Source: Clostridiales bacterium (GTDB lineage Bacteria; Bacillota; Clostridia; Oscillospirales; CAG-272). Taken from it: a DNA stretch of 64,000 nucleotides. Both the position numbers and the translations under genes were made by a program. The stretch is from contig BLMO01000113.1 in assembly GCA_011957885.1 (NCBI GenBank), forward strand, positions 29,909 to 93,908, read 5' to 3'. Below, piece after piece: positions 45,268 through 51,133 of this stretch. Position 1 is the stretch's first letter. Each line of letters begins with the position of its first letter. A model generated the notes under the pieces. It was not told the origin of the DNA. It saw nothing but the letters and a program-made list of their open reading frames with translations, and made no database searches.

Positions 45268-45296
45268 TTGACAAACCCGGATTGCTGTGCTATAAT
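45268..45296 (+). promoter_or_regulatory. consensus sigma-A promoter of tRNA pair
   Basis: Perfect TTGACA, 17-bp spacer, perfect TATAAT, 12 bp before the first tRNA. Confidence 0.9.
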
Positions 45297-45461: not shown

Positions 45462-45481
45462 GTGGAAAAGTCACCGCAGGA

Positions 45482-45510
45482 AAAAACGCACTTAGGTGCG
45501 TTTTTTTCTT
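45482..45510 (+). terminator. terminator of tRNA pair
   Basis: AAAAACGCAC pairs with GTGCGTTTTT around a TTAG loop (CGCAC/GTGCG core), with a run of seven T. Confidence 0.9.
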
Positions 45511-45646
45511 TTATATAAAAAATGTGGAAATACGTACGGCATTTTGCCAAAAAATGAAATAACTATGAAAAAATTAAAAAAAGATGCAGGATTTAGCTAT
45601 CCAATCCGTAGTTAATAGATGACAATAAAAGTGGGGGAGCTGTTAT

Positions 45647-46207
45647 ATGGAAGATATTGAGATCATCGATCTGTATTGGAATCGATGTGAAGACGCCATT
45701 AGAGAAACTGACCTGAAATATGGCAAGCTTTGTAAAAATATAGCTTACAATATTCTCTCTTCTGCGGAGGACGCAGAGGAATGCGTTAACGATGCATATC
45801 TTGGAACATGGAATGCAATCCCCGATGAAAGACCTGGCTTTTTTTCTGCATTTCTGTGCAGAATTGTCCGAAATTTATCTCTAAAACGTTATGAATACGT
45901 ACATGCCCAAAAACGGAATCCTGGCGTGGTTACCTCTTTAGATGAATTGTATGCGTGTGTTTCAGAAGATGCTGCTATCGATAATGAATATGAAGATAGT
46001 GTTCTGCGAGATGCGATCGATTCTTTTCTTGAGATGCTGCATGAAGATGCGCGCAATATTTTTATAAGGCGCTACTGGTTCTTTGATCCAATTAAGGAAA
46101 TTGCCCTCCGTTACGGCATGAGCGTTAGTAAAGTGGATTCTACACTGGTGCGAACCAGAAAAAAATTCAAACAGTTTTTAATACGGGAAGGCTTTTGTGA
46201 AAAATAA
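45647..46207 (+). CDS. ECF-like sigma-70 family sigma factor
   Basis: 186 residues. Region 2 runs from YWNRCEDAIRETDLKYGKLC through EDAEECVNDAYLGTWNAIP to FLCRIVRNLSLKRYEYV. Region 4 is at 125-180 (SFLEMLHEDARNIFIRRYWF, IKEIALRYGMSVSKVDSTLV). It belongs to the clostridial ECF-like group that is usually followed by a short anti-sigma gene beginning with a cytoplasmic leader and one membrane span. Here the next gene is a giant macroglobulin with exactly such an N terminus. The ribosome site is GGGGGAG. No sigma-A promoter was recognised upstream, consistent with expression by an alternative sigma factor, perhaps itself. Confidence 0.85.
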   Translation: MEDIEIIDLYWNRCEDAIRETDLKYGKLCKNIAYNILSSAEDAEECVNDAYLGTWNAIPDERPGFFSAFLCRIVRNLSLKRYEYVHAQKRNPGVVTSLDELYACVSEDAAIDNEYEDSVLRDAIDSFLEMLHEDARNIFIRRYWFFDPIKEIALRYGMSVSKVDSTLVRTRKKFKQFLIREGFCEK

Positions 46208-46282
46208 ACTGCCGCTTCATGAATCGAAATTTCGTTTTGCTGATTCGCGAATGCGATTTTCAGAAAGGTAAGGTATTACGGC

Positions 46283-49200
46283 ATGAAAAAGAAGGATATG
46301 GATAGAATGATCAGCCTTATTGGTGATGAAAAGCTTACAGCAAGTGAAGCTGCCGGTAAGCGTAAAATTCCATGGAAGCAAATGACGGCTGTCGCTGCCT
46401 GCGCAGTAGTACTCTTATCTTCAGCGTTTGTTTATGCTAAATTGCGCACATCCAAACCAGAAAAACCGGGCAATCCTGTTATAGAAATGCCAAGCGATTC
46501 CCCCGCAGAACTGCGGATTTTAAGCACCAGCGCAACTACATATTATTCCTCCAGTCTGATTGCGAACGACACCGGGTTTATGATCCAAACGGAGAACGGT
46601 TCAAAGGAAAAATTGGAAGAGTCTATATATCTGGAGCCCCCGGTGGACTATACGATTGAGAAAATAGATGAGAATGCGTTCCTTCTAAAGCCTGAAGAAT
46701 CGTTTCCGGATAATACGGTGATCCATTTGGCGCAGATCAAAAACGAAAAAGTAACCGACAGTTGGGCATATCAGACAAAAAATGATCTGACCGTTTCAGA
46801 AACATATCCTCGGGATGGCGCGCTTGCTGTTTCGCCGGAAAGCGTTCTGGAAATTGTGCTGTCCTATGGAGATGTGGAGAATTTTGACGACTATGTTTCA
46901 ATCACTCCTGAGATTTCCGGCTCTTGGGCACATATTGGAAAAACATGGCGCTTTACACCGGATCAGCCACTTGAAAAGGGCACCAGGTACACCGCCAGTA
47001 TCCGGGAAGGATATCATAATGACAGCGTGACAAACACAGTGCCCTCCAGCTTTTCTTTCAATGTTTTTGACAATGATGAAGAAAACACCGCTTACGAAAT
47101 TGATTTGTATAAACCGGTGCACATAACTCGGGATGAAATTTACACCTTCCGCCCCGGGGAAGCCGTATCAATTCCGTTTCATCCGGTAAAAGATAGGCAT
47201 GCGCAGATTTCACATATCAGTATGGAGCAGCTGCACAGTGCGAAGGATTTTATTGCAAAACTGCTGGATGAGAATGCACAGGTGGAGAGTACGTCTTTGG
47301 GGGATTTGTCTTTCACTTGGCAGAACCTGTCTCTTCAGGGGAATGCAGAAGATACTGTAGTATTTGATGATACGCTGCCGGAAGGCTATTATATTGCCCG
47401 TATTTATGACATGGCGGACCGGGAAAGAAGCATAGTTTTTCTTCAGGTAAACTCCATTTCCGCCTATGCTTTGGAAACGAGGGAAGAAGCCCTGATCTGG
47501 GCGGCAAAGGATGGCGTGCTTGCAGAAGGACTTTCGGTAGCTTATGATGAAAAGACAACTGAAACGGATGAAAGCGGAATCGCCCGATTTGCTCTTTGCG
47601 ATGGCAAAGAAATACGCCATGCGACAGTAGGAGCGGAAAATCCTCTGGTAATCGGTTTTTCCAGCTTTGAAGGGGAATTCTTGAACGGATATATTTATAC
47701 AGACCGGCCACTGTACCATGAAACGGATCTGATTCAAATCTGGGGTTATGTGCCGCCGGAAATGCTCCGGGAGGAAAACGCAAAGTTTACCCTTACATTG
47801 GGTGACTGGAGAGATGTGGAAGAGGAAATCCCTGTTAAACTGGATGAATTCGGTTGCTTTACTGCGACCTATCAGCTTTCAGATCATAAGGAAGATACAC
47901 TGAGCATATACTTGCGCCGGGACGGTGAATATGTGAGTTGGCGCGGTGTTGATATTAAAGATTATTCCGGACAGTATTATTCCTATGAGTTTCTTCTGGA
48001 TAAAAATTATATCCGTAATGGCGAAACGCTGGAGTTTGATGTAAAGGTTACGCATTTGAGCGGAATGCCGGCGTCCGGCAAACGGGTATATGCAGACGAT
48101 CTGACTGCGGTAACAGATGAAAACGGTATTGCACATTTTTCCATGCTTGTTCAGGAAACAATGAATGAATCCTTCAGTGGATTTCAGCCCTTCACACGAA
48201 TGGGAATCCAAATTCGAAACGGCGAGGGTACAGAATATAATAATCATATCGATTATGCAGATGTGTATGTGTTTTATTCCGATATCATCTTGAAAGATGA
48301 GATAGAAGATTCTCAATACACGATCAGCGCCTATAAGCTGAATCTGGACAGCGATATATCTGTATTGGAACCGACAGGCGGCGGACCTTATCTTGACAGC
48401 GACAGTGTGATTGCTTTGCTGGGTACGCCGATTGATCAGGCAAAGATTACTGTCCGTATGATAGAACGCAAGTATGAACGATATGCAAGAGGTTATCGAT
48501 ACAATGAATATACAAAGGAAAGTGAACCAGTATATTATCAGGAGAGCGATCCGGTGGAAACTGTCGTCCGGGAATGGACGTTGATCGGAGAAAACGGCTT
48601 CGCAACAATTGATCTCAACGACATCTCCATGAAGCAGCCGGAGGATTTCATTCGATATGTTTATGAGATGCAGCTTTTCATCGAAGACAGCAGCGGTTCC
48701 CAGTCCGGAAAAAGAATCATCAGGAATACCGGGTACAAAAGTGCTGTCAGCCACGATGGAATAGAGAAGAATTATAATCCCGGGTTTATAAAGCATGATT
48801 TACCTTATTGGGGAAATAGGGAATATTCGGTTGATACGCCGTATATCTGTTACGGCTACGAATTTTCTGTTGATAACAACGATGATGCTTACGCCAGACG
48901 GTATTCTTCCGGCGAGACAGTCTCTGTCGCACTGTATGACAAATACCATGAACAGGTCTTGGACGGACTGGTTCTCCGCGCGCTGCTGCAAAATGATGTG
49001 GTCAGCGCGGAGGTTGTTGATCCGGACACACTTTCCTTCACTTATCCTGAAAATCTTGTTCCTAATGCATATTTAGCGGGCGCATATTTTAAAGACGGCG
49101 TTTTTCATAGGATCCCGGCTGAGTTGCTGCTCTATAACGCGAAGGAAAACGCTCTTGACGTAACAGTTGCCGCCGACAAGGAAACTTACGCGCCTGGGGA

Positions 49201-51133
49201 AGAGGTGACGTTGGAGCTTGACGTTTGCGATGCCCGGGGCAACGGCGTGGCGGCAGAGATCTCCATAAGCGTGGTGAATGAAGCGGTGCTTGCGCTGAGA
49301 GAAAATGATGTTGGAATCTTTGAAAATATTTTTAAACGCATCGAATACAAGAAATATTTCTTCTCAACCTATCAGGATCGTACATTGTCCAGAGAGCAGG
49401 GCGGCTGGGGAGATGGAGGTGCAGATTCCTTTCGCAGTAATTTCGGCGATACAGTATACTTCAAAGCGGTGACTACCGATGAAAACGGTCATGCTGCAGT
49501 GACCTTTAAATTGCCGGATACGGTTACCTCTTATCGGGTGACAACACAGGCTGTGAGCCATGGCGTAAAAGTTGGTGCCGACATCTCGTCCGTTTGTGTG
49601 CAGCAGGACTATTTCATCCAGCATACTGAGCCGAGGAATGTAAAGACAACAGACGATTTGGTGGTGGGCGTGTGCGCCATTGGTGGAGAAGGCGTTTCAA
49701 ACTTCACCTTTACAATCAAGGAAATAGGCGCAGAGGTGACGACTTCCGCGGCAGACTCACACATGGCATACGCCAATTTTGGCAAACTGCCGTTGGGAAC
49801 CTACACAGTACAAATCCGTGCAGAAAACGGAGAAAAGCAGGATGGTGTGGAATACACAGTGGAGATTATTTCCACAGCATTGACCGTTCAAACCAAAACA
49901 AAAATGAAAGTGGAAGACGGAGAGACGATTTATCCTGTAAAAAATCCTGTGGTTATTGAATTTTGCAACTCGGATATGACCCGGTATCAGGGCTATCTGG
50001 ATTATTTAATGAGCGAGTGGAACGCACGTTTAGATACACAGATTGCCAGTCGGGAAGCGCTTCTTCTGCAAAATCAGTACCGGGACGAACATAATTATGT
50101 TCCTTATTACGATTTGGATGACTATTTTGTACATGAGGAGTTCGGCAATGCATATTTGCTTTCTCCTCTGCCGTCGGCGGAATCGAATGTGGTATTTACA
50201 GCTTTGGCAGTGTATTATACCGAAATCGAAGGAAGGGGAACCGGCGGGTGGGAATATACCGCCGCACGCGGAGCGGATCCTTATGAAACAGCGTTGCTTC
50301 AGGCGGCCAATCGAAACGCAGTTCTGGTAGATTTGCAATATCTTGTGTCCCGCGCCGAAACAGACCGGGAAAAGCTTCTGATTTCCTTAGCGTATGCATT
50401 CTTAGGAGATTATGGAAACGCTGCTGCAAACTATGTGCAAACAGAAGATGCGGATGCTATGAGCTTGCAGGCGGCGGCAGCAACCTTTATTGATCGGGAA
50501 AATGCTGCAGCGCTGCTGGATGCACAAATTGCTGCTAATCCGTCTGATTTGTATCTCCGATTTGCTGTGCTCTCCTATCTGAAAAATAATACGGAGCTGC
50601 TGGGCACAGAAGAAAGCGTTACGGTTTCCGGAGAGAATCTGCAGGAGACAGTAACGGTAAACGGATTAGAGGTTAAACGAATCATAGTCAATGCGGACGA
50701 TTTGTCCGGCATCACATTTACATCTTCCAGCGAAAACATGGATGTGACCTATTATTACGATACTTCTGTTGACAAGCTGAACGGAGATACTGTGCAGCAG
50801 TCGATCACAGCATCGCTTTCGGGAGATTTGCACATGAACGGTCAGGTTTTTCTGGAAATTGATCTTTCCGGTATTCCAAAGGAAGCCGGATACGGGTATT
50901 TCACAGTAGCGCTTCCCAATAATTTGCGCATGACGTCCGTAAGATACACAAGGGAATATTCTGTTGTCAGCAAGCTGGATCATCTGGTAATCTATCTTGG
51001 AAAAGACAGACCGGCAAAAATCAGCATTCCCCTTAGCGTTACTTGTGAAGGGTCATATGAATTTGAACCTGTTGTATACCAGTTGGATGAAACGTATTAT
51101 ATTTCACCTTCCTTCACCTATCAGGTACAGTAA
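46283..51133 (+). CDS. membrane-anchored alpha-2-macroglobulin-like protein with anti-sigma-like N terminus
   Basis: 1616 residues. Residues 1-32 are cytoplasmic (KKKDMDRMISLIGDEKLTAS, KRKIPWK) and 33-53 form one membrane span, the layout of clostridial anti-sigma partners. Outside are a Big_5-like domain (about 165-255: SYPRDGALAVSPESV-type with WRFTPDQPLEKGTRY), an MG2 domain near 469 (IYTDRPLYHETDLIQIWGYV), an MG3/MG4-like series, a bait-region-like stretch, and the A2M domain near 1059-1095 (TTDENGHAAVTFKLPDTVTS, YRVTTQAVSHG). The thioester motif CGEQ is absent and the alpha-toroid region is shortened. There is no lipobox, unlike many bacterial macroglobulins. It follows the sigma gene by 75 bp with AAGGTAAGG as ribosome site. 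Bacterial macroglobulins are thought to trap host proteases. Confidence 0.85.
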   Translation: MKKKDMDRMISLIGDEKLTASEAAGKRKIPWKQMTAVAACAVVLLSSAFVYAKLRTSKPEKPGNPVIEMPSDSPAELRILSTSATTYYSSSLIANDTGFMIQTENGSKEKLEESIYLEPPVDYTIEKIDENAFLLKPEESFPDNTVIHLAQIKNEKVTDSWAYQTKNDLTVSETYPRDGALAVSPESVLEIVLSYGDVENFDDYVSITPEISGSWAHIGKTWRFTPDQPLEKGTRYTASIREGYHNDSVTNTVPSSFSFNVFDNDEENTAYEIDLYKPVHITRDEIYTFRPGEAVSIPFHPVKDRHAQISHISMEQLHSAKDFIAKLLDENAQVESTSLGDLSFTWQNLSLQGNAEDTVVFDDTLPEGYYIARIYDMADRERSIVFLQVNSISAYALETREEALIWAAKDGVLAEGLSVAYDEKTTETDESGIARFALCDGKEIRHATVGAENPLVIGFSSFEGEFLNGYIYTDRPLYHETDLIQIWGYVPPEMLREENAKFTLTLGDWRDVEEEIPVKLDEFGCFTATYQLSDHKEDTLSIYLRRDGEYVSWRGVDIKDYSGQYYSYEFLLDKNYIRNGETLEFDVKVTHLSGMPASGKRVYADDLTAVTDENGIAHFSMLVQETMNESFSGFQPFTRMGIQIRNGEGTEYNNHIDYADVYVFYSDIILKDEIEDSQYTISAYKLNLDSDISVLEPTGGGPYLDSDSVIALLGTPIDQAKITVRMIERKYERYARGYRYNEYTKESEPVYYQESDPVETVVREWTLIGENGFATIDLNDISMKQPEDFIRYVYEMQLFIEDSSGSQSGKRIIRNTGYKSAVSHDGIEKNYNPGFIKHDLPYWGNREYSVDTPYICYGYEFSVDNNDDAYARRYSSGETVSVALYDKYHEQVLDGLVLRALLQNDVVSAEVVDPDTLSFTYPENLVPNAYLAGAYFKDGVFHRIPAELLLYNAKENALDVTVAADKETYAPGEEVTLELDVCDARGNGVAAEISISVVNEAVLALRENDVGIFENIFKRIEYKKYFFSTYQDRTLSREQGGWGDGGADSFRSNFGDTVYFKAVTTDENGHAAVTFKLPDTVTSYRVTTQAVSHGVKVGADISSVCVQQDYFIQHTEPRNVKTTDDLVVGVCAIGGEGVSNFTFTIKEIGAEVTTSAADSHMAYANFGKLPLGTYTVQIRAENGEKQDGVEYTVEIISTALTVQTKTKMKVEDGETIYPVKNPVVIEFCNSDMTRYQGYLDYLMSEWNARLDTQIASREALLLQNQYRDEHNYVPYYDLDDYFVHEEFGNAYLLSPLPSAESNVVFTALAVYYTEIEGRGTGGWEYTAARGADPYETALLQAANRNAVLVDLQYLVSRAETDREKLLISLAYAFLGDYGNAAANYVQTEDADAMSLQAAAATFIDRENAAALLDAQIAANPSDLYLRFAVLSYLKNNTELLGTEESVTVSGENLQETVTVNGLEVKRIIVNADDLSGITFTSSSENMDVTYYYDTSVDKLNGDTVQQSITASLSGDLHMNGQVFLEIDLSGIPKEAGYGYFTVALPNNLRMTSVRYTREYSVVSKLDHLVIYLGKDRPAKISIPLSVTCEGSYEFEPVVYQLDETYYISPSFTYQVQ

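Follow-up and report, generated by a model that had tools for sequence, protein, structure and literature searches.

Can a protein with the alpha-2-macroglobulin (A2M) fold serve as an anti-sigma factor? The question is raised by a locus in a 64,000-nucleotide stretch of DNA from a Clostridiales bacterium (genome G000, contig C112, 29909-93908; assembly of 1.72 Mb, 65% complete), called the window here, in which the gene of an extracytoplasmic function (ECF) sigma factor is followed by that of a large A2M-like protein. An earlier note on this DNA had described an ECF gene followed by a 1616-residue macroglobulin, and both open reading frames (ORFs) were found in place with the expected Pfam domains (Table 1); the 186-residue product has sigma-70 regions 2 and 4 and little else, as an ECF sigma factor should. 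The A2M gene lies directly 3' of the sigma gene, the position of an anti-sigma gene, and starts 75 bp after the sigma stop, a gap in which our scan called no terminator-like site. Type-A (window-like) relatives outside the window's genus mostly show a four-base overlap of the two genes. In the window, the ECF gene has no further candidate for an anti-sigma gene next to it, with the relatives and the rest of the genome not checked systematically. Judging from sequence comparison, the A2M-like protein very probably serves the adjacent ECF as its anti-sigma factor.

Two further ECFs of the window type are encoded in G000 (L002 and L003, 42-43% identical), and the gene after each specifies a small membrane protein with an N terminus resembling that of the window A2M. 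From 31 such loci (L002, L003, and L120-L148) we obtained 29 companions, none of them an A2M (the source genomes G001-G039 have no A2M match, and the companions at L002 and L003 are short), and four-base overlaps with the sigma stop occur in 26 of the 29. When A2M N termini were searched with a profile of the first 75 companion residues, the window protein was found with an E value of 5.7e-11, while 12 type-A ECF-linked A2Ms with an intact start gave 1.6e-14 to 2.1e-6. The best A2M without an ECF reached 0.0017, or 5e-4 in a wider set (L189), in which the ECF-linked L188 scored 3e-8. With the membrane span removed, 11 of the 12 type-A linked A2Ms retained 7 bits or more, compared with at most 2.7 bits for types B and C, 1.1 bits for the best ECF-less A2M, and 5.7 bits for the best of 1300 shuffled N termini. 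The cytoplasmic homology signal is short but real, and the anti-sigma-like N terminus described in the earlier note is recovered by the profile with the span or without it. The window protein shares a homologous cytoplasmic N terminus, then a single span, with the putative anti-sigma companions of sister ECFs. Its 32-residue segment does not have the zf-HC2-like domain of more than 50 residues that marks class I anti-sigma factors, and when five N termini (the window, L116, L107, L097, and L003 as a short companion) were compared with Pfam, no match passed the cut-off.

Linkage between A2Ms and ECFs extends well beyond the window. A2M matches were detected in 26/295 genomes of the family (E 1e-10), 31/394 of the order (E 1e-8), 54/391 of the class (E 1e-20), and 56/398 of the phylum (E 1e-20). 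Counting the window itself, the loci taken for study numbered 141 (family 26, order 30, class 56, phylum 28); those of the phylum represent its best matches only (26 of the 56 genomes, nearly all with weaker matches, were left out). Exclusion of seven loci with the N terminus cut off left 134. The earlier note had proposed asking how often an ECF gene lies directly upstream of macroglobulins with such an N-terminal extension, and among all 134 A2M loci scored, 35 have one, in ten families (f1 8, f16 6, f19 5, f20 4, f40 1, f78 2, f80 2, f130 3, f181 3, f203 1), all 35 with about 29-115 residues before the first span (L259 partly masked). The end of the ECF gene ranges from 14 bases within the A2M gene to 127 bases ahead of its start, and 30 of the 35 ECF genes overlap the A2M gene or end within 30 bp of it (L056 was taken from its first start, overlapping the sigma stop by four bases). 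By eye, at least five kinds of pre-span segment can be told apart: A (window-like), B (f16), C (f19), zf-HC2 (f78), and others in f80, f130/f203, and f181. In two linked A2Ms (L202 and L218) the N terminus matches zf-HC2 (PF13490; E 5.4e-10 and 3.4e-9), and both segments show Hx3Cx2C, a pattern used for zinc-binding anti-sigma domains (PMC7406223). The 99 loci counted as ECF-less include two internal fragments (L051, and L039, in which an ECF lies upstream but the A2M frame is broken). Even when read from the earliest possible start, 76 of the 99 have no more than 21 residues ahead of the span. Another 14 reach at least 29 residues from that start, an upper bound, and the length of the extension was accordingly dropped as a sole diagnostic. 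The earlier note would have counted homologues without the extension beside the same sigma factor as a refutation; extension-less homologues do exist, but in ECF-less lineages. Within the window's genus, 3/17 genomes have an orthologue of the sigma factor at 87% identity or above (49% for the next best match), and the same three carry the A2M among nine tested for both.

The trees suggest that the pairing arose repeatedly. When 50 A2Ms were analyzed without their N termini by IQ-TREE (short search), the type-A linked ones separated into two distant clades, one amid f1/f20 A2Ms that are mostly lipoprotein-like by look, the other (the window and L036-L038) adjoining the type-C lineage. The type-A N terminus tracks the type-A sigma factor across both of these ectodomain clades; the nearest ectodomains (type C and f80) have other sigma factors and other N termini. 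On a FastTree of 97 rows (quick alignment, with one long row, L336, unsure), the presence or absence of an ECF requires seven changes, with at least six forced by well supported branches. The genome G862 holds A2Ms from two sister clades, L318 with zf-HC2 and an ECF, and L330 with a signal peptide only and no ECF. L187/L323 (G894) is the only member of the type-A clades without an ECF in the 3.2 kb upstream; its N terminus scores only E 0.054 against the companion profile, an apparent joint loss of ECF and N-terminal segment. The earlier note saw one chain as both sensor and anti-sigma factor, a view that comparison supports well through the profile, the 35 linked A2Ms, the zf-HC2 domains, and an N terminus that follows the sigma type. 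The support drawn from the missing thioester falls away.

Some of the surveyed loci hold other features of note. At four f32 loci (L198, L206, L210, L211), ORFs of at least 1066-1160 codons match the sigma profile and run to or near the end of the locus; by look they continue into a span and a long outer part, and they lie 33-381 bp before an extension-less A2M. The one that was scanned (L206) has sigma regions 2 and 4 above cut-off and a total of 29.1 bits for SH3_3 with no single stretch passing. The products of two genes overlapping type-B A2M ends (L107:7850-8812 and L094:7679-8581; 41% mutual identity) begin like lipoproteins and contain a Memo-like domain (PF01875; E 1.8e-9 and 5.9e-14), perhaps a third operon member in f16. 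At L100, L106, L107, and L114, a second sigma-like gene precedes the type-B ECF by 157-191 bp, and we take it to be of the sporulation SigE/SigK type from its appearance. The genome G011 has 20 matches to the window-type ECF, four with an in-frame TGA.

Table 1. Features of the ECF-A2M locus in window coordinates, with the evidence for each.
Feature	Position	Strand	Evidence
Candidate ECF promoter, GCAGGATTT ... CCGTAGT	45586..45612	+	Conserved with L036 while part of the flanks diverged; putative
ECF sigma factor, 186 aa	45647..46207	+	Sigma70_r2 (PF04542) E 1.3e-11, Sigma70_r4_2 (PF08281) E 2.5e-8, TIGR02937; all above cut-off
A2M-like protein, 1616 aa, anti-sigma-like N terminus	46283..51133	+	A2M and A2M_BRD above cut-off; structure matches
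Cytoplasmic anti-sigma-like segment, residues 1-32	46283..46378	+	Profile of 29 non-A2M companions
Single membrane span, residues 33-55	46379..46447	+	Hydropathy for the start at 33; end by eye
Big_5 Ig-like domain, residues 167-259	46781..47059	+	PF13205 E 4.1e-7
A2M_BRD match, residues 873-1005	48899..49297	+	PF07703 E 2.6e-8
Bait-like segment, residues 1020-1048	49340..49426	+	Between BRD and A2M matches; disorder prediction; length varies strongly among relatives
A2M domain, residues 1057-1129	49451..49669	+	PF00207 E 2e-9
Helical domain in place of the thioester domain, no thioester, residues about 1230-1441	49970..50605	+	Model helices; no Cys in the YfhM CLEQ column

The outer part of the window protein belongs to the A2M superfamily. 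MG2 and MG4 matches stay below the Pfam cut-off. AlphaFold models of residues 852-1616 and 60-858 have a predicted local distance difference test (pLDDT) score of 80.9 and 73.5 and a predicted template modeling (pTM) score of 0.63 and 0.42, respectively, and their best solved Foldseek matches are E. coli ECAM (5a42, E 8.8e-31) and a Salmonella A2M (4u48, E 5.8e-19). TM-scores by query length are low (0.32 and 0.24), as the domains match and their arrangement does not superpose, and the match list of the 60-858 model also includes unrelated Ig-chain proteins. The window protein lacks the CXEQ thioester of type I A2Ms, an absence that the earlier note had reported correctly. None of the 97 aligned A2Ms, ECF-linked or not, has a cysteine in the column of the YfhM CLEQ, and listed four-letter patterns with arginine there total 66/97 rows.

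Between the BRD and the A2M domain, pLDDT falls below 50 at residues 1023-1048 (model residues 172-197), and this predicted bait-like segment is as expected of a bait. It spans 27 columns in the window protein and is 96% identical to that of L036, against 92% overall; in the f1/f20 clade, ECF-linked or not, the bait is 14-61 residues longer. We compared the bait with the whole protein in 18 A2M pairs at 70-97% identity. Bait identity was more than 0.1 below that of the whole in one pair (L318/L319, 0.40 vs 0.72), slightly lower in three (L117/L118, L267/L268, L095/L096), and level or above in the other 14. For the six ECF-linked pairs it was lower in three, all outside the window's genus and one strongly so, and higher in three. 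Fast bait evolution was rejected as support for an arms race, with 14/18 pairs level or higher, including all of those from the window's genus.

Promoter motifs indicate what the sigma factor may transcribe. GAAACN-N13-18-CG[TA]C occurs exactly 5' of 8/13 type-A A2M-linked ECFs and of 0/39 other type-A ECFs (shuffle means of 0.05 and 0.13), the eight being in part close relatives and not eight independent cases, and L040, L056, and L188 have near variants by eye. The stricter GAAACC-N13-16-CGTCTTA gives six sites in 6/11 genomes, against one for a control pattern. In G277, G367, G418, G586, and G606 the exact motif occurs once each, only 5' of the ECF-A2M operon, so that the operon itself is the chief visible target there; the sixth site (G165) lies elsewhere. 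A wider regulon was not supported: allowing up to two mismatches, the five genomes had 45 sites against 62 for the control, and a one-mismatch site in G277 (L293) has no clear downstream gene among ORFs of at least 70 aa. The earlier note had suggested comparing the promoter region across relatives for autoregulation, a comparison that supports it in the five relatives with the motif only at their own operon, but not directly in the window, which lacks that motif and shares another element with L036. By eye, this CCGTA[GC]T element also precedes other type-A ECFs (L131, L133, L139, L276), and we infer that the window operon is autoregulated. By eye, 4/6 type-B ECFs have TGTAA[TC]A followed by CGTCT, the first element differing in the other two (L094 and L114), no such pair is evident upstream of type-C ECFs, and a de novo dyad search returned mostly AT-rich words. 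A GTGAAAGG-CCTT-like stretch recurs, by eye, just 3' of the -10-like element in many type-A ECFs among L120-L148, where it presumably sits in the 5' leader of ECF mRNAs.

Around the pair, the genes for tRNA-Met and tRNA-Glu and then a terminator-like hairpin (45478-45509) lie upstream of the ECF gene, and a perfect TTGACA-17-TATAAT with an extended TG lies at 45268-45296, just 5' of the two tRNA genes. The gene 3' of the A2M starts about 240 bp on and is a redox gene by look.

Modular membrane-bound anti-sigma factors are known, an example being RsgI, whose partner SigI is not an ordinary ECF sigma factor. In Clostridium thermocellum, RsgI combines a cytoplasmic sigma-binding N terminus, one membrane helix, and an exchangeable outer sensor domain (PMC12203970). 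SigI/RsgI resembles the window pair in having its own sigma partner, a cytoplasmic N terminus, a single span, and an outer domain, but RsgI differs in its autocleaving periplasmic domain and in sensing carbohydrates (PMC12203970); no Pfam match to the RsgI N-terminal or autocleavage domains was found in the window A2M up to E 0.1. Membrane-bound ECF anti-sigma factors have been divided into class I, with or without a zinc motif, and class II, such as CnrY, with segments under 50 residues set apart as possible class II (PMC7406223). ECF/anti-sigma pairs share with the window the order of sigma then anti-sigma gene, the cytoplasmic N terminus, and the single span, and the class II size fits the 32-residue segment (PMC7406223). 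Unlike the known ECF anti-sigma factors, the window protein has a whole A2M as its outer part. We know of no solved or tested anti-sigma member with so short a segment.

Among bacterial A2Ms, the thioester-less MagD of Pseudomonas aeruginosa traps protease after bait cleavage (PMC5764988). Both MagD, which is found in the cell envelope, and the window A2M lack the CXEQ thioester and have a bait or, in the window protein, a bait-like segment; MagD differs in its signal peptide and its six-gene mag operon, and the term "sensor" does not occur in its account (PMC5764988). The neighbors in the window are by look tRNAs, spoIIR, and redox genes, with no profile search aimed at mag genes. Bait cleavage moves the thioester domain of ECAM by 36 Å (PMC4498604), and a shape change readable across a membrane is thus known in the A2M fold. 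YfhM/ECAM of E. coli (L282) has the A2M fold in common with the window protein but is a lipoprotein by name, lies beside pbpC, and has a CLEQ thioester, whereas the window A2M has a span after 32 residues, no CLEQ, and by look no adjoining pbpC. We found no report of an A2M as the outer part of an anti-sigma factor, in several lineages, in the open-access literature searched, with earlier notice elsewhere possible, and in the papers found that mention both "anti-sigma" and "macroglobulin" the co-occurrence is incidental.

A mechanism can be proposed from these observations. Residues 1-32 would tether the sigma factor to the membrane, the span would be formed by residues 33-55, and the A2M ectodomain outside would be the receptor. 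A protease cutting the bait segment would change the shape of the ectodomain, regulated intramembrane proteolysis may then remove the membrane part, as for RsgI (PMC12203970), and the freed sigma factor would act mainly on its own operon, raising the amount of A2M. The A2M would in this way be a sensor and possibly, as an output, a protease trap in one feedback loop. The anti-sigma role is supported by comparison, namely N-terminal homology, linkage, repeated origin, and the self-directed promoter of relatives; protease sensing by the A2M is plausible, and we regard the chances of bait cleavage being the signal as evenly balanced. For this account taken as a whole, anti-sigma role, cleavage signal, and feedback together, we estimate a probability of roughly 0.6.

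Several observations weigh against this account. Four ECF-linked type-B and type-C A2Ms also score against the companion profile with the span included (E 1.6e-6 to 7e-5), therefore the span carries much of the full-profile signal; once it is removed, the window score is a weak 8.7 bits (E 0.006) and L040 fails (0.6 bits, E 2.2). The segments of types B, C, f80, f130, f181, and f203 are called anti-sigma by position only, and many of the surveyed genomes are incomplete. The best sigma tree has three changes, and a single origin of all type-A A2M-linked sigma factors is compatible with the data (approximately unbiased (AU) test, p 0.44), which disqualified that tree as proof of repeated fusion; as it is insufficient by itself, the claim of repeated origin rests on the A2M trees. 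The earlier note had argued that a missing thioester fits a sensor, but the cysteine is missing from all 97 A2Ms with or without an ECF, so that its loss cannot mark a sensor, and the thioester-less MagD still traps protease. Conservation of the bait matches that of the whole protein within the window's genus, all three pairs being level or higher, which speaks against a simple arms-race picture. The window promoter, finally, differs from the GAAACC-N-CGTC of most A2M-linked relatives.

Other explanations share part of this evidence. The A2M may be the anti-sigma factor while its ectodomain senses a bound ligand, the state of the cell wall, or mechanical load, with the A2M fold used as a large modular receptor. 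The loss of the thioester and the slow bait of the window's genus fit such a receptor, as do the companions of sister ECFs, which differ in length and, by look, in their outer parts, so that the receptor part is exchanged among them. We nevertheless consider it unlikely, since a disordered bait-like segment is kept at the right place, the f1/f20 bait is longer with or without an ECF, and the bait is less conserved than the whole in those three ECF-linked pairs from other genera.

It is improbable that the A2M is merely an ECF-controlled effector whose N terminus is a plain membrane anchor, the true anti-sigma factor being encoded elsewhere. The promoter motif of the five relatives, which marks the operon as the main target, would be expected of an effector too, MagD shows that an A2M can trap protease without a thioester (PMC5764988), and no search was made for a remote anti-sigma gene; however, the N terminus matches companions in anti-sigma position and is a zf-HC2 in two relatives, most ECF-less A2Ms (76/99) have at most 21 pre-span residues, and the window ECF has no other candidate beside it. 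Chance adjacency, conceivable for a single locus in a family where one genome can hold 20 such ECFs (G011), has next to no probability and is refuted for the whole set by the ten families in which 35 of the 134 loci show the pairing, by the 30 cases of overlap or of a gap within 30 bp, and by the matching type-A N termini.

Bacterial A2Ms have been described as inhibitors. Our broadest suggestion is a tentative one, to which we give somewhat less than even odds: that this phylum has repeatedly, in about six lineages on the A2M tree, made an immune-type protease inhibitor into a membrane receptor, with the A2M as anti-sigma factor, bait cleavage as the signal, and a self-amplifying alarm as the result. 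If A2Ms do act as anti-sigma receptors, proteolytic attack on the cell could be read out as transcription, and the readout would be done by the fold that animals use in complement and in their own A2M. Because A2Ms have paired repeatedly with ECFs of several types, natural variants with and without an ECF are at hand, even as sister genes in the single genome G862.

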